Of a stretch of DNA of 64,000 nucleotides, positions 22,320 to 60,751 are shown one piece after another. Where the stretch lies: the NCBI GenBank assembly GCA_000384935.1, contig ARRA01000003.1:124001-188000 (forward strand), given 5' to 3'. Within the stretch, counting starts at the first letter, position 1. Every line of letters begins with the position of its first letter. A program made the translations under genes and the position numbers. Under the pieces are notes generated by a model that did no database searches, was not told the origin of the DNA, and saw only the letters and a program-made list of their open reading frames with translations. The DNA is from a gamma proteobacterium SCGC AAA076-P13. GTDB lineage: Bacteria; Pseudomonadota; Gammaproteobacteria; Magnimaribacterales; D2472.

Positions 22320-23516
22320 TTATTTTTTATACTTAGCGGCCTCTTCTGAGCCATCTGTGGCTGTACCCTTTGTGTACGAGTGTGCACCCATACCTGCAAG
22401 ATCACCATTTTGAACAATCAAATATGGGTCTCTAATTGGTTCGCCTGCAAAATAACATTCTAGAATTTCTCTAACCCCAGCGGCATATCTTGTTTGAGCA
22501 GATAGCGAAGTACCTGAAGTATGAGGAGTCATGCCATGGTTAGGCATTGTTCTCCATACGTGATCATTTGGAGCTGGTTGTGGGAACCAAACATCACCAG
22601 CATAACCACTTAGCTGACCTGACTCTAAGCCTCTTGCAATAGCATCTTTATCACAAATCTTGCCACGAGCAGTATTGATGATATATGCACCTCTTTTCAT
22701 TTTACTAATCATTTCATCATCGAATAAGTGCTCAGTTTTAGGATGCAATGGGCAACTAATATTAACTACATCACACACAGAAACTAGTGACTCTACAGAA
22801 TCATGATAGGTGAGGTTTAGTTCTGCTTCTATTTCATCAGAGAGTTTATGAATATCAAAGTAATGCAAATGCACATCAAAGGGTTTCATTTTTCTTAACA
22901 TATCAATACCAATTCTGCCTGCAGCTACAGTACCAACATGCATGCCCTCTACATCATATGACCTTTGTACAGCATCAGCTATATTCCATCCGCCCTCTTT
23001 TACAATTCTATGTTGGGTATGATAATCACGAACCATTGATAGGATCATCATCACAATGTGTTCGGCGACTGAACGAGAATTACAGTAAGTAACTTCAACA
23101 ACATCCACGTTATTATCCATGGCTGCCTGAAGATCAACATGATCAGACCCAATGCCAGCTGTAATTGCCATTTTTAAATTAGGCGCTGTTTTCATCTTGT
23201 CTCTTGTTAAATAATATGGAAAGAAAGGTTGTGATATAACAATATCAGCATCTACTAACTCTTTATCAGCCTCACACCCATCTCCATCCTTATCAGAAGT
23301 AACAACTAGTGTATGGCCAGCATCTTCAAGAAACTTTCGAAGCCCTAGCTCTCCAGATACACAACCAAGTAACTCACCAGGAGTAAAATCTATAGCTTTT
23401 GGGGATGGAAGTGTCATTCCATCAGGGTACTTATCTAACTTTGGTAAATCATCTCTTGCATACCTTTCTGGCATACCTGTTTTTGGATCATCATATAAGA
23501 CACATAAAATTTTCAT
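22320..23516 (-). CDS. fdh: NAD-dependent formate dehydrogenase (metal-free, D-2-hydroxyacid dehydrogenase family)
   Basis: A 398-residue enzyme oxidising formate to CO2 with NAD. It closely follows the Pseudomonas sp. 101 FDH pattern: MKILCVLYDDP start, TPKAIDFTPG-like block, VISQPFFPYYL, AGIGSDHVDLQ, VTYCNSRSVAEH (formate-binding Asn), GTVAAGRIG (dinucleotide loop), NTARGK (catalytic Arg), TPHTSGTSL (catalytic His) and a GAHSYTKGTATDGSEEAAK-type tail. Asp in HYFDIHKL favours NAD over NADP. It probably supplies NADH from formate produced by C1 metabolism. It lies 75 bp downstream of the thiamine operon with its own leader. Confidence 0.95.
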   Translation of the reverse strand: MKILCVLYDDPKTGMPERYARDDLPKLDKYPDGMTLPSPKAIDFTPGELLGCVSGELGLRKFLEDAGHTLVVTSDKDGDGCEADKELVDADIVISQPFFPYYLTRDKMKTAPNLKMAITAGIGSDHVDLQAAMDNNVDVVEVTYCNSRSVAEHIVMMILSMVRDYHTQHRIVKEGGWNIADAVQRSYDVEGMHVGTVAAGRIGIDMLRKMKPFDVHLHYFDIHKLSDEIEAELNLTYHDSVESLVSVCDVVNISCPLHPKTEHLFDDEMISKMKRGAYIINTARGKICDKDAIARGLESGQLSGYAGDVWFPQPAPNDHVWRTMPNHGMTPHTSGTSLSAQTRYAAGVREILECYFAGEPIRDPYLIVQNGDLAGMGAHSYTKGTATDGSEEAAKYKK

Positions 23517-23557: not shown

Positions 23558-23593
23558 AAACAACAACTAAAGAATGCGCAATACTTGTTGTTT
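23558..23593. repeat. inverted repeat between kinase and formate dehydrogenase genes
   Basis: Nine-base arms AAACAACAA (23558-23566) and TTGTTGTTT (23585-23593) enclose an 18-base spacer with a central TGCGCA. The repeat touches the stop codon of the upstream kinase and lies 42 bp before fdh. It could be an operator for fdh or a weak transcript hairpin; no T-run follows in the direction of transcription. Confidence 0.35.
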
Positions 23594-24419
23594 AAATAAT
23601 ATTTTTTAATTTTTTCTCTAATTTCTTTAGATTTAGGATTTTCTTATCAATTTTTCCATTTTGTATCAGCGAAAGACTCCACATGTATTCTAAATAATGA
23701 CAAAAAAGCATCCATTCTCTAAGATTTGTATCATTTAATGCTGAATATTCATTATTTGTATAAGCTTTCCATAAAATTGTCCTATCAACTTTTGATAAGT
23801 TATAAGCATTCGATATCGAGGCAATATCAAAAAAAGGATTGTTAAAACTCGAGTACTCCCAGTCTAAAAAAAATAATCTATCTCTCCAAAGAAGGTTCGT
23901 CTTATTTAAATCATTATGAGAGAAAACATAATCATCAGAGTTATTGAGTTTGTCATATAAATCAAATCCTCTGTGAAGAATTATATTCTCAGGAGCCTCG
24001 TTTAGTAAATTTCTGTAAAAATTTATGTCATTGCTAAAATATTTTTTCTTACTTTTGGGGAGATTAATTTCATGAATTTTTTTTAATTCGGCTCCAAGTG
24101 TTTTTAAAAAAACTTTATTGGAATCCTCATCAAGTGAAAATTCAATACCCTCGATGTATCTCCATACTAAAATTCCATAAGACAAATCACTAAATAAAAC
24201 CTCTGGACTAAAATCTAAAATTTTTAGTTGGCTGAGTATAAAAATTTCATTTTCTCGATCTACATTTATTTTACCGACGCATGGATAATCAATTCTTAGG
24301 ATTGCTTTGATGTTATCAAAATTACAAATAGATATTTCAGATATAGGGCCTGATTTAATTGTTTTAATAATCTCTAGATTATGATTTTTTATATCTAGAT
24401 TGTTATGAAGATTCTGCAC
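23592..24419 (-). CDS. choline/thiamine kinase-fold phosphotransferase, candidate thiamine kinase
   Basis: A 275-residue aminoglycoside-phosphotransferase/choline-kinase-fold protein. The catalytic loop is FSHNDLNKTNLLW (HxDxxxxN) and the metal-binding loop FLDWEYS. It overlaps the PnuT-like permease gene by 17 bp and is the last gene of a TPP-riboswitch operon. I therefore infer that it phosphorylates the imported thiamine (or a precursor), as E. coli ThiK/YcfN of the same fold does. The fold alone would equally allow choline or another small alcohol. Confidence 0.7.
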   Translation of the reverse strand: MQNLHNNLDIKNHNLEIIKTIKSGPISEISICNFDNIKAILRIDYPCVGKINVDRENEIFILSQLKILDFSPEVLFSDLSYGILVWRYIEGIEFSLDEDSNKVFLKTLGAELKKIHEINLPKSKKKYFSNDINFYRNLLNEAPENIILHRGFDLYDKLNNSDDYVFSHNDLNKTNLLWRDRLFFLDWEYSSFNNPFFDIASISNAYNLSKVDRTILWKAYTNNEYSALNDTNLREWMLFCHYLEYMWSLSLIQNGKIDKKILNLKKLEKKLKNII

Positions 24420-24999
24420 TAATATCGTCTCTTATTTTTACCCATGACATGTAACCAAAATATATTATTACAAGATAAATAAAGAATAATCCTGAGGTTA
24501 AAAAAAGTCCTCTGGACATGAATAAAAAGATAGAAATAAAATCTATAACAAACCAATATATCCAATTTTCAAGAAGTCTTTTAGCAACCATATATGTCGC
24601 AACTATTGCTCCCCATGTTGTTAGTCCATCTATGAAAGGCAAGATAGCATTGGTATATTTTTCTAATAAAAATCCAGAGATTAAAGTCATGATAACTATT
24701 AATACAATGATCTTAATATGCATCCTTTTATTCCATGTTCTAACAATAAATTGAGGAGCGTCAGTATTGACACTTCTCCACTGTTGAAGCCCATAAAAGG
24801 CCATCATGATATAAAAAATTTGCAGGTAAGCTTCCATATATAAGCCTGCATCATACATAATATAGAAATATAATATTGAACTAATTATAGCCGCAAACCA
24901 ACACTTTACGTCTTGTTTTACAGCAAGTAATAAATAAATAATAGCAAATACAACAGCTGCTATTTCCATCCAAAATTCACTTATAAAGTTAGAAATCAT
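24403..24999 (-). CDS. pnuT: PnuC-family permease, probable thiamine transporter PnuT
   Basis: A 198-residue inner-membrane protein with about seven helices. PnuC-family signatures are present: YMEAYLQIFYIMMAFYGLQQW and, near the C-terminus, RLLENWIYWFVIDF. PnuC proteins facilitate entry of nicotinamide riboside; members controlled by TPP riboswitches and adjacent to TonB receptors are assigned to thiamine (PnuT). Its start overlaps the receptor gene by 11 bp and its stop overlaps the kinase gene by 17 bp, so the three are tightly coupled and metabolic trapping by the kinase is a natural reading. Confidence 0.85.
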   Translation of the reverse strand: MISNFISEFWMEIAAVVFAIIYLLLAVKQDVKCWFAAIISSILYFYIMYDAGLYMEAYLQIFYIMMAFYGLQQWRSVNTDAPQFIVRTWNKRMHIKIIVLIVIMTLISGFLLEKYTNAILPFIDGLTTWGAIVATYMVAKRLLENWIYWFVIDFISIFLFMSRGLFLTSGLFFIYLVIIYFGYMSWVKIRDDISAESS

Positions 25000-27100
25000 A
25001 TTGGACCATGACTCCTATGTGCCTTGGATCTCCATGTCTTCTATAAAGTGTATCTATGAAATTAGGTGCCTCATTACCAAAGTAAAAACCTCTTACTGAA
25101 TAATACTTATCAAAAATATTTCTTGCCCATAATGAGTAAGTCCATTGTCCATGTTCATATCCATAATTAATGTTTGTTAAGTTGTATGACTTAGAAGTAT
25201 TGTTATGAGAATCAGAGTAATAGAACTCACTTTTACCAACAACATTCAATGATAAATAAGATTGGTTTGTTGGCTTCCAATTGATGCCTATTGAAAAACT
25301 ATTTTTTGGGGCATGCGCCTGTTCTCTACCTTCTATATCTGGTCTCGAAATCCAATTTTTTATTTCTGTATTTAGCAATCCAAGATTAGCAAATATACCT
25401 AGAGATTTATTCAATGCAAAATCTATATTTAACTCTAAGCCATTATTAATTCCTTCTGCAGCATTTTGGGTTAAGTATAAAAAAGTGTTGGGATCTGAAG
25501 GATCAACCTGGGTTGAAATTAAGACCTGTTGATCTTTTCGATCAGAATAAAAAAGGACTGCTCCAAGATTTAATTTTGACTGGAAAAATTTACTATTAAT
25601 TCCAACTTCATAATTAGTTAAAAATTCTGGATCGTAATATAAATTTCTATTTGATGAATTTTTATCAAGACCAAGCCCTAAATTAAATCCACCCTGGTTA
25701 TAGCCCTTAGCAATATTAAAATAAATATTAGAATTATTATTAAGAGTTTTAACTAATGATAATTTTCCACCAGACATTTTATTTGATGGTGAAAATGATT
25801 CGTCATAAGAATCAAAATAATTAGATTTAAAATTCTCCCATCTTCCACCAATTGAAATTTTGATTGTCTCATTAATTAAATAATCAATATTTCCAAATAT
25901 AGAATAGCTTGAAGAGGAAAAGTCACTCAAAGAAGAAGAGTTACTAAAATAAGGACCATATGGATCTGATGGATCTCCATAAATACCAGTATCTTTTTTA
26001 GCATTTGTTTCATTTATATCTACAAAACTAGCTCCAAGGACCCATTCGATGCTTTTTTCTGTATTTTTATCTGCAAATTGGGATACAAGTCTAAATTCTT
26101 GACTAAAAGTATCTCTTTTTCTTATAGTTTCTGAAAAATAGTCATAAATGAAGGGCGAATGGGACTCAGGATTGCCCCAATCAGCATCATAACTAAGAAT
26201 GACATCAGTATTTGTTACACTTGATAGGCTTTGAAACTCAAATTTTTCAAATTGATGATAAATTTTTACTCCATAGGCATTACTTTTTTGAGAGTCCATT
26301 CCAGGCCTATCAGATAATGTATTAAGACTACCATCTATAGTCCATATATCTGCAGGATCATCTAACTCTATTTGAGATATAAGAAACTTATAAGTGGTTT
26401 GGTTATCAGTTACCCAATTCACTTTTAATCTAAATGTGCTCTCATCTTTTTTAGAAGTATCAGACTTGTTAAGAAAAATATTCTTCCTAAATCCGTCAGA
26501 ATAATCTTTTTTTATAGCTAACCTATAAGTGAGGTCTTTATTAAGATTTACAGGACCACCAAAAGCAATTCCAGTATTAAAAGTTCCATATGACCCCATA
26601 ACTATTTCACCCTTCCCTTCAAAGTTTTCTGTTGGATCTTTTGTAGAAATATATATGAGCCCCGCCATTGCGCTAGATCCTATTCTTGCTCCTTGGGGGC
26701 CTCTGTGAACTTCAATTTGATCAACATCAAAAGTTGTGGCAATTCCCCCTTGCCCAGAAAAGTCTATATCATCAATCAGTAAACCTACTGCAGAGTTTGG
26801 AGTTCTTTCATAGCCAGATCTTTCTCCAATTCCTCTTATCTGGAAATGTCTTGCCCTAGAATCACTTGCAGCAAAATTCAAATTTGGTACTAGGTACGAA
26901 AGGTTTTCAAAGTGCTTTAAAGCCTGGGATTCTATTAATTTACTGTCAAGGACTGCAATGCTTGAGTCTTCTGCTGACAGGCTAGTTTCTCTCCAGTCTC
27001 CTTTGATAATAACTTCTTCTATAGCTTGAGAGCTCATCTCTAGACTAAAAAAATATAGTAAGATTATTGAATAAAATAAATTATTTTTAATGATTTTCAT
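24989..27100 (-). CDS. TonB-dependent outer-membrane receptor, probable thiamine uptake
   Basis: A 703-residue TonB-dependent receptor. It has a signal peptide (about 1-26), a TonB-box-like IEEVIIKG just after it, a plug domain (LSYLVPNLNF, IRGIGERSG, VEVHRGPQGA-like IEVHRGPQGA) and a 22-strand barrel ending in Phe (MVQYDF), as outer-membrane insertion requires. The ligand is inferred from the TPP riboswitch overlapping its ribosome-binding site and from the following PnuT-like gene. By sequence alone it belongs to the broad FecA/FhuA-like group, so thiamine, a thiamine precursor or a phosphorylated form are all possible. Confidence 0.88.
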   Translation of the reverse strand: MKIIKNNLFYSIILLYFFSLEMSSQAIEEVIIKGDWRETSLSAEDSSIAVLDSKLIESQALKHFENLSYLVPNLNFAASDSRARHFQIRGIGERSGYERTPNSAVGLLIDDIDFSGQGGIATTFDVDQIEVHRGPQGARIGSSAMAGLIYISTKDPTENFEGKGEIVMGSYGTFNTGIAFGGPVNLNKDLTYRLAIKKDYSDGFRKNIFLNKSDTSKKDESTFRLKVNWVTDNQTTYKFLISQIELDDPADIWTIDGSLNTLSDRPGMDSQKSNAYGVKIYHQFEKFEFQSLSSVTNTDVILSYDADWGNPESHSPFIYDYFSETIRKRDTFSQEFRLVSQFADKNTEKSIEWVLGASFVDINETNAKKDTGIYGDPSDPYGPYFSNSSSLSDFSSSSYSIFGNIDYLINETIKISIGGRWENFKSNYFDSYDESFSPSNKMSGGKLSLVKTLNNNSNIYFNIAKGYNQGGFNLGLGLDKNSSNRNLYYDPEFLTNYEVGINSKFFQSKLNLGAVLFYSDRKDQQVLISTQVDPSDPNTFLYLTQNAAEGINNGLELNIDFALNKSLGIFANLGLLNTEIKNWISRPDIEGREQAHAPKNSFSIGINWKPTNQSYLSLNVVGKSEFYYSDSHNNTSKSYNLTNINYGYEHGQWTYSLWARNIFDKYYSVRGFYFGNEAPNFIDTLYRRHGDPRHIGVMVQYDF

Positions 27101-27181
27101 GCAATTCCTCCGCCATTATTGTATGGATCAGGTTCAAAGAGTTTCCAAGGATCTCAGGCCGAAATGGCCACCCCTTTGCAA
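27101..27181 (-). promoter_or_regulatory. TPP riboswitch (thi-box) controlling the thiamine uptake operon
   Basis: Read on the minus strand, the conserved TPP aptamer elements occur in order: GGGGTG, CTGAGA, AACCTGATC, ATAATG and GCGGAGGAA. These correspond to the pyrimidine- and pyrophosphate-binding arms. The final conserved block contains GGAGGA (27106-27111), which is also the Shine-Dalgarno sequence 6 bases before the receptor ATG at 27100. The closing stem (TGCAA with TTGCA) reaches the start codon. Binding of TPP would therefore hide the ribosome site directly, so control at translation initiation is expected. There is no separate expression platform or terminator. Confidence 0.93.
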
Positions 27182-27283
27182 TTAAATTAGATATTAATAT
27201 GTTTAAAAAATAAAATCTAGCAGATAATAGATTTGCTTAGTTTTAAAAATTAAATTAACTAAAAGCTGTTATTATCATTTAAA

Positions 27284-29355: not shown

Positions 29356-29763
29356 ATGAAAAAAATATTATTAACTTTGTTACTTGCCAGCCCACTTGCT
29401 TGGGCTGAACAGGACCATGCCAATATGCATGATCATTCTCATGAAGGACATCTTCATGACACCATGGTTGACGGCAAAAATCTTGATGTTAGTGCTGAAA
29501 GGTTTGACGCATTTATGAATGAACTAACCAATGTTAATGTTGCTGTTGTTAGCGTTAAAGGGATGGTTTGTGATTTTTGTGCACGAGGTATTGCGAAAAC
29601 ATTTGAAAAAGACAAAACCGTACAAAAAATAGATGTTGATCTAGATAATGGAAAGGTATTGATTGCTTACTCTAAATCAAAAGACATTAATTACAGTGAA
29701 ATTGAGAAAAAAATTCTATCTAATGGACAGAGTATGTCAGATTTGCAAATACTAGAAATTTAA
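29356..29763 (+). CDS. periplasmic heavy-metal-associated (HMA) domain protein
   Basis: A 135-residue exported protein. A signal peptide (cleavage after PLAWA) is followed by a His-rich stretch (HANMHDHSHEGHLHD, about residues 21-35) and then one ferredoxin-like HMA domain with the metal-binding loop MVCDFCARG (CxxC). It resembles MerP or copper chaperones with an added His-rich arm. A strong AAGGAG ribosome site precedes the ATG. It probably binds a soft or borderline metal (Cu, Hg, Zn, Ni or Co) in the periplasm and hands it to the MerT-like membrane protein encoded next. Confidence 0.85.
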   Translation: MKKILLTLLLASPLAWAEQDHANMHDHSHEGHLHDTMVDGKNLDVSAERFDAFMNELTNVNVAVVSVKGMVCDFCARGIAKTFEKDKTVQKIDVDLDNGKVLIAYSKSKDINYSEIEKKILSNGQSMSDLQILEI

Positions 29764-29768
29764 TAGTT

Positions 29769-30134
29769 ATGGATGATAAGACTTCGAATTTCTTTTCTTT
29801 GTTTGCATCTTCTTCTACGCTGATATGTTGTGCCTTGCCAGCTATTTTTGTAGCGCTTGGAGCTGGAGCAAGTTTTGCGAGCTTAATAACAGTATTTCCA
29901 TTTCTAATTACCCTGTCCCAATATAAAACCTACATAACCTTATTAGCTTTTTTATTGATACTTCTAGCTGGCTATATCAACTACAAAACATACTATATGC
30001 CTTGTCCTGCTGACCCAGAACTAGGCAGAGCATGTTCGGAAACTAGAAAAAAATCTAGGTATCTGTACTATGCGTCTGTAGCAATTTTTTTATTCGCTAC
30101 AATTTTTACATATATAGTTCCGAGGTTTTTATAA
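29769..30134 (+). CDS. MerT-like small inner-membrane metal transport protein
   Basis: A 121-residue protein with three hydrophobic helices. The first helix carries the adjacent cysteines typical of MerT (LICCALPAIFVALGAGA). A later cytoplasm- or periplasm-facing loop holds two more cysteines (MPCPADPELGRACSE), as in MerT. MerT imports Hg(II) received from MerP, but no mercuric reductase (merA) or merR lies here, so mercury detoxification is not supported and another metal is likely. It starts 5 bp after the HMA gene and ends 1 bp before the repressor gene. Confidence 0.75.
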   Translation: MDDKTSNFFSLFASSSTLICCALPAIFVALGAGASFASLITVFPFLITLSQYKTYITLLAFLLILLAGYINYKTYYMPCPADPELGRACSETRKKSRYLYYASVAIFLFATIFTYIVPRFL

Positions 30135-30135
30135 A

Positions 30136-30396
30136 ATGAAACATCCATGTCATAAAGAGCAATTAACAAGCTTAAAAAGAATAGAGGGCCAGGTGAGAGG
30201 CGTTCAAGGAATGATTGAGGAAGGTCAATACTGCGTTGATATTCTTAATCAAATAAAAGCACTTAAGAATTCAATTATTACTGTTGAGGGCAAAATTCTA
30301 AAAACTCATTTGCGTGAATGCATTAAGGAATCTCTAAAAGGTGATGACGAATTTGATTTAAAAATTGATGAGATAATGAAGATTATGAAAAGATGA
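30136..30396 (+). CDS. CsoR/RcnR-family metal-sensing repressor
   Basis: An 86-residue all-alpha DUF156 regulator. LKRIEGQVRGVQGMIEEGQYCVDIL is the family core. Candidate metal ligands are Cys33, His58 and Cys62 (the C-H-C set of CsoR, with the same 25- and 4-residue spacing), plus His3 at the position used by RcnR and additional Cys5 and His6. The HCHC set is reminiscent of nickel sensors such as InrS as well as copper sensors, so the metal is undecided. It is expected to repress its own operon through the C-tract operator at 28726-28742 and to release it on metal binding. Confidence 0.9.
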   Translation: MKHPCHKEQLTSLKRIEGQVRGVQGMIEEGQYCVDILNQIKALKNSIITVEGKILKTHLRECIKESLKGDDEFDLKIDEIMKIMKR

Positions 30397-59893: not shown

Positions 59894-60751
59894 ATGTCTA
59901 TATTGCAAAGTTTTACCTTTCAAGAATTAAAAAATCTTCTGCCCAATAGAGCAAAGGATAGCCATAAAGGTAATTTTGGAAAAGTTTTGATATGCGCTGG
60001 CTCCCCAGGCATGGGTGGCGCCGGAATACTTGCATCTGAGGCAAGTTTATTTTGTGGCTCTGGACTAGTAACTCTCGTCACAGACACGTCTAATGTAAGC
60101 CCATCTTTATTAAGAAACCCTGAGGTAATGGCAATTGGTGTTGATATGGTTGAAGGGGTCGATATAGATTTAAAAATTAAAGATCATAGCGTTATATTGT
60201 ATGGACCAGGAATTACTAATACTGCTTTTGCAAAAACTATATTGGGTAAAATATTAAAGTCTGCAAATAATTCAAAAATTATATTAGATGCAGGTGCTTT
60301 GCACATCGCGGCATCATCAAAATCTTTAATCAAAAAATCCAATAAAACAATCTTGATGACGCCCCATCCAGGAGAGGCCGCTATATTACTAAACATATCT
60401 ATTGAAGAAGTTCAAAGAGATAGGCTTTCTGCTGCCAAGCAAATTGCAGACACTTATGGGGCTTCTATTGTCATATTAAAAGGAATGGGAACGGTGGTCT
60501 TTGACTCAACAAATAACAAGTCTTTTATATGCGCGTGCGGCGGACCTGAACTTGCTACAGGAGGAACTGGTGACGTTCTGGCTGGTGTTTTGACTGCTCT
60601 TCTTGCCCAAGGTCTTGATATAAGAAATGCGAGCATTATTGCTGTTGCTGTTCATTCGGAGGCAGGTTTAAAATTTAAGGAAGAAATTGGTGAAATAGGC
60701 TTAAATGCCTCAAGTTTAATACCTATAATAAGACAATTAATAAATCGATGA
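59894..60751 (+). CDS. nnrD: ADP-dependent NAD(P)H-hydrate dehydratase (stand-alone)
   Basis: A 285-residue ribokinase-like enzyme repairing hydrated NAD(P)H. Family blocks are SHKGNFGKVLICAGSPGMGGA, TPHPGEAA and GTGDVLAGVLTALLAQG. In most gammaproteobacteria it is fused to the NnrE epimerase (YjeF); here only the dehydratase half is present and no epimerase is next to it. It overlaps tsaE by 4 bp, which keeps the usual yjeF-tsaE-amiC order. Confidence 0.92.
   Translation: MSILQSFTFQELKNLLPNRAKDSHKGNFGKVLICAGSPGMGGAGILASEASLFCGSGLVTLVTDTSNVSPSLLRNPEVMAIGVDMVEGVDIDLKIKDHSVILYGPGITNTAFAKTILGKILKSANNSKIILDAGALHIAASSKSLIKKSNKTILMTPHPGEAAILLNISIEEVQRDRLSAAKQIADTYGASIVILKGMGTVVFDSTNNKSFICACGGPELATGGTGDVLAGVLTALLAQGLDIRNASIIAVAVHSEAGLKFKEEIGEIGLNASSLIPIIRQLINR

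Follow-up and report, generated by a model that had tools for sequence, protein, structure and literature searches.

An operon headed by a TPP riboswitch in a bacterium that appears unable to make thiamine very probably serves to scavenge intact thiamine and is repressed by TPP. This reading builds on features seen directly in the sequences: the aptamer, the order and families of the genes, the missing synthesis genes, the presence of ThiL, and the conservation of the operon. The operon is encoded by the minus strand of the window, a stretch of 64,000 nucleotides (contig ARRA01000003.1, positions 124,001 to 188,000) from gamma proteobacterium SCGC AAA076-P13, whose genome assembly (1.31 Mb in 39 contigs) is 87% complete. 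The receptor shares 98% identity with one from a genome that bears the label SAR86 cluster bacterium, and most of its 80 best relatives in named genomes are likewise labelled SAR86 or Gammaproteobacteria. Because of these labels we assign the window to SAR86, and judged by the same relatives the source genome is a member of this marine clade.

The first gene (24989 to 27100) encodes a TonB-dependent receptor of 703 amino acids with plug and barrel domains (PF00593, 97.9 bits; PF07715, 43 bits), a predicted outer-membrane thiamine receptor in the role of Omr1/OMthi. The second gene (24403 to 24999) encodes a permease of 198 amino acids that belongs to the PnuC family (PF04973, 161 bits) and is predicted to be the thiamine transporter PnuT. 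The third gene (23592 to 24419) encodes a predicted thiamine kinase of 275 amino acids, placed in the choline-kinase/APH superfamily by Choline_kinase (PF01633, 55.7 bits), APH (PF01636, 46.1 bits) and its motifs. The receptor and permease genes overlap by 11 nucleotides, and the permease and kinase genes by 17 nucleotides, provided that the GTG start is correct. The original prediction of a TonB receptor, a PnuT-like permease and a kinase in succession, each gene overlapping the next, agrees with these Pfam matches and overlaps. A TPP riboswitch, a TonB receptor and a PnuC-family permease are thus found together in one operon.

The riboswitch model RF00059 matched positions 27088 to 27185 of the minus strand, from P1 to P5, with 61.6 bits, above the gathering score of 54.3 (E value of 1.1e-9 over the window), and no further TPP element was found in the 1.31-Mb source genome. 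When 25 distinct SAR86 aptamer sequences were compared, pairing was held in 98.1% of cells, and sliding the 3' partners lowered pairing to 31-55%. Both sides were changed in five pairs, and the cells with both sides changed numbered 21 vs 6.3 in shuffles; P3a was excluded from this count as too variable. In P1, five sequences carried U-A in place of C-G, a double change; covariation was also found in P3 and P5. The TPP aptamer that had been proposed is therefore upheld both by the RF00059 score and by helices supported by covariation. An exact-pattern search for the aptamer core in viral contigs returned none.

The aptamer had been described as directly preceding the receptor gene. The two are indeed adjacent, but they also overlap: the Shine-Dalgarno sequence and the A of the ATG lie inside the aptamer. 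When the Rfam structure was projected onto the sequence, the GGAGG at positions 27111 to 27107 formed the 3' strand of P4 together with adjoining bases, and the A (27100) of the receptor start codon (27098 to 27100) was the final base of P1, where it pairs with 27180. No space is left between the aptamer and the receptor start for a separate expression platform. A search for an intrinsic terminator around the operon found no terminator-like site, and sigma-70-type promoter-like sites were not in excess there (22 vs 21.3 in shuffles); hence nothing points to an expression platform that terminates transcription. With the ribosome-binding site and the initial A of the start codon both enclosed by the aptamer, a direct block of translation by TPP is expected. 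GGAGG was present in all aligned SAR86 aptamers, and the Shine-Dalgarno sequence and start codon were recognised within the aptamer in 71 of the 77 named SAR86 riboswitch loci. TPP riboswitches in which the ribosome-binding site is the purine-rich 3' part of the aptamer core, and which have no separate expression platform, have been described (PMC2258182); the SAR86 aptamer is an ordinary example of this arrangement, conserved through SAR86, and nothing of substance differs.

We then analyzed the thiamine genes by profile searches over 61 SAR86-order genomes, in which the control genomes were matched each time. Neither ThiC nor ThiE was found in the source genome, and ThiG and ThiD were not found except for partial matches of 18.8 bits and 36 bits, respectively. 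Both partial matches belong to other proteins and cover the models only in part (the thiD-like match is at C3:184308, about 60308-60643 of the window). Thiamine pyrophosphokinase (TPK; PF04263) was found in 0 of the 61 genomes, the source genome included, although the controls matched. TenA was likewise absent from all 61, the source genome included, which rules out TenA-based salvage. ThiL was present in the source genome (TIGR01379; G000:C4:106287-107153), with 232.1 bits against a cut-off of 184.15. Among the genes that the original prediction had singled out for checking (thiC, thiG, thiE and thiL/tenA), only ThiL was found (232 bits), and the full de novo synthesis that it had named as evidence against itself was not found in the source genome. 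At 87% completeness of the source genome, any one absence counts for little by itself, but another 17 genomes of the same genus were likewise without the synthesis genes, and because they show identical absences, incompleteness does not explain the missing genes.

The original prediction had left open whether thiamine or a precursor is scavenged. Dependence on thiamine stands; the precursor is dropped, since without ThiE, ThiD and ThiG imported pyrimidine or thiazole would be unusable, so that the scavenged compound would have to contain the whole thiamine molecule. ThiL requires thiamine monophosphate as its substrate. Without ThiE, a kinase acting on whole thiamine would be the sole route to this substrate, which makes it the likeliest job of the third gene; with neither TPK nor ThiE, a thiamine kinase would be the missing step ahead of ThiL.

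The operon was conserved across SAR86. The riboswitch reads into a receptor ortholog in 37 of 37 riboswitch genomes (source genome counted), and the permease gene comes next on every contig that extends far enough. The kinase gene follows in families f1 and f4 and not in family f2. The PnuC-family gene occurs once per genome and is confined to this operon. Among 80 named SAR86 loci, the riboswitch was found in 77; two of the other three end at a contig edge, and the third has the Shine-Dalgarno-plus-start motif and missed the aptamer pattern. The permease was present in all named loci that were not cut, and the kinase was strong in 55 loci and weak or broken in another 2, whereas 14 had none and 9 were cut there. 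Mean column identity fell from 69% in the receptor to 64% in the permease and 44% in the kinase. Seven genomes of family f2 keep the riboswitch, receptor and permease, and have neither the operon kinase nor an assigned thiamine kinase. Family f2 also has an APH-family kinase of 297 amino acids directly after panC (L225:2-2381 in G040 and L226:235-1961 in G043), and in G040 it comes after panB and panC. We weighed this protein as the thiamine kinase that family f2 lacks; given its position right after panB/panC, it may instead be a kinase related to pantothenate.

In 20 aligned orthologs of the operon kinase, the motif HND-L-x3-N was invariant and DWE was near-invariant; H168, D170, N175 and D186 were invariant, and the D of DWE was conserved throughout. 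Because HND-L-x3-N and the DWE aspartate are conserved, the kinase should be an active phosphotransferase. The thiamine kinase model TIGR02721 (ThiK) gave 51.6 bits against a cut-off of 299.45, which none of the 61 genomes passed, and the pre-guanitoxin kinase model NF041256 (GntI) gave a higher score, 75.7 bits, against a cut-off of 357. Both profiles were matched by 20 of the 20 orthologs. BLAST of the kinase against E. coli ThiK gave no meaningful match, and a profile comparison with ThiK yielded about 18% identity, a weak match at the superfamily level. The closest solved structure was choline kinase 4r77 (84 bits); the fold itself does not discriminate between thiamine and choline as substrates. 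By its profile scores, the kinase is not ThiK; judged from its context, it most likely works like ThiK.

Against a role as thiamine kinase are the score far below the ThiK cut-off, the higher GntI score and the choline kinase as nearest structure. The kinase could instead have choline or a similar small alcohol as its substrate and be merely co-transcribed, with another enzyme phosphorylating thiamine. The best solved relative and the low ThiK score fit this alternative, as does family f2, which does without the operon kinase. We nevertheless consider it unlikely: the kinase gene shares nucleotides with that of the permease and remains part of the operon in families f1 and f4, the 61 genomes have no TPK, and no ThiE remains to supply the thiamine monophosphate for ThiL. 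We rather lean toward the third gene encoding a thiamine kinase of a separate, non-orthologous family, nearer to the bacterial choline kinases than to ThiK. It would have been recruited into the receptor-permease operon where Bacteroidetes have the thiamine pyrophosphokinase, in a lineage that repeatedly switched between synthesis of the thiazole half and import of whole thiamine.

The operon and the synthesis genes were mutually exclusive. The riboswitch was found in 37 of the 61 genomes and thiG with thiE in 20; none had both, and the 4 with neither are incomplete (71-78% completeness). The exclusion between riboswitch and thiG gave a Fisher p of 1.7e-12 (n=61), a naive value, as the genomes are not independent. 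The permease obeyed the same rule as the riboswitch. Of the 20 thiG/thiE genomes, 13 had thiC and 7 did not. The clade thus appears to include three classes: makers, precursor users and users of whole thiamine. The seven genomes with thiG and thiE but without thiC or the TPP riboswitch (G022, G023, G029, G036, G042, G045 and G060) are predicted to be HMP auxotrophs.

Could the operon import a thiamine precursor, such as HMP, that is joined in the cell to thiazole? Precursor scavenging is common in marine bacteria, and SAR11 without thiC has thiV beside a TPP riboswitch, according to passages of PMC10881298; the seven SAR86 genomes with thiG and thiE but without thiC also indicate that precursor users probably exist in the clade. 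However, there is no intact ThiE or ThiG in the source genome or in any of the 37 riboswitch genomes, and the precursor-dependent SAR86 genomes are wholly without the riboswitch and PnuT. Import of a precursor by the operon is thus very improbable.

It is still less credible that the operon serves NAD salvage, with a permease that is a genuine PnuC transporting nicotinamide riboside: the NCBIfam name PnuC (TIGR01528, 83 bits, over the cut-off) comes from a model that we take to be too broad to separate PnuT from PnuC, and although the sole solved relative of the permease is PnuC, a TPP aptamer heads the operon and the permease gene is confined to genomes without thiamine synthesis.

On a ThiL tree of 52 genomes, the operon label required 6 changes, compared with 15.6 in shuffles, with at least 5 changes on the starred branches. 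The genus g13 includes both operon genomes and thiG genomes. On this tree, built from a single gene by a quick search and by itself unable to separate gain from loss, the mutual exclusion reflects at least five switches between the operon and thiazole synthesis in the lineage. The operon genome G052 retains a thiD remnant of 58 amino acids and a broken thiE remnant in the same place (L230:3472-3648). These remnants, in a genome that now has the riboswitch operon, suggest that the synthesis genes were lost in G052. A search with permissive filters at nine SAR86 synthesis loci (L031-L034, L037 and L039-L042) found no TPP riboswitch near thiC, thiG, thiE or thiD, so that thiamine synthesis in the SAR86 genomes with these genes may be free of regulation by this riboswitch class.

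For intact thiamine as the scavenged compound, we infer what each transporter binds, what the kinase phosphorylates and how the operon is regulated as follows. At low TPP, the aptamer would be loose and the ribosome-binding site free, so that the receptor would be translated, followed by the overlapping permease and kinase genes. The TonB receptor would carry thiamine across the outer membrane, and thiamine would then diffuse through the PnuT-type permease into the cytoplasm. The kinase would convert thiamine to thiamine monophosphate, trapping it, and ThiL, encoded elsewhere, would convert thiamine monophosphate to TPP. Binding of TPP to the aptamer would in turn lock P1 and P4, which would cover the start codon and the Shine-Dalgarno sequence, and translation would stop.

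The closest known system is that of gut Bacteroidetes, in which OMthi (Omr1), PnuT and Tnr3 often form one TPP-riboswitch operon and import by PnuT and OMthi is genetically supported (PMC5613172). The two share a TPP riboswitch, a TonB-dependent receptor, a PnuT permease and a phosphorylating enzyme. They differ in that the Tnr3 pyrophosphokinase is absent in 61 of 61 SAR86-order genomes; in the SAR86 operon, a kinase of the choline-kinase/APH type would stand in for Tnr3, with ThiL needed as the second step. Bacteroides thetaiotaomicron also makes thiamine (PMC5613172), whereas the source SAR86 bacterium, judged by its gene content, makes none. With E. coli ThiK (YcfN) and ThiL, the SAR86 enzymes share the superfamily and the predicted two-step route from thiamine through thiamine monophosphate to TPP; unlike E. 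coli ThiK, the SAR86 kinase is encoded in a transport operon.

Passages of PMC10881298 report omr1 near a TPP riboswitch in two SAR86 population clusters and describe SAR86 members as B1 auxotrophs. The clade, the receptor role and the riboswitch are shared with our operon; those passages describe neither the permease nor the kinase, and they do not mention that the aptamer overlaps the start codon or that operon and synthesis genes exclude each other. In a recent SAR86 genome study, a word search finds thiamine named only as an additive to the medium (PMC11582366). Three points are new as far as the open-access literature goes: the swap of the kinase combined with ThiL, the mutual exclusion and the repeated switches. 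The operon and thiG/thiE could serve as a clean genetic marker sorting SAR86 populations into whole-thiamine users, precursor users and makers, classes that can be compared with thiamine and HMP levels measured in seawater. Confirmation of the kinase would add a third enzyme type that traps thiamine, beside TPK and ThiK, and the annotation "choline kinase" or "phosphotransferase" could then be corrected across the clade.

Two further features lie near the operon in the window. A gene of the D-isomer 2-hydroxyacid dehydrogenase type (398 amino acids, 22320 to 23516, minus strand), perhaps an NAD-dependent formate dehydrogenase, is located 75 nucleotides past the kinase gene; because a reading frame of 398 amino acids is more distant downstream or not seen in many relatives, the gene is probably outside the operon. 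On the plus strand (29356 to 30396), a small cluster resembles metal handling, judged by reading the sequences, with a predicted heavy-metal-associated-domain-like protein, a MerT-like membrane protein and a CsoR/FrmR-like repressor.
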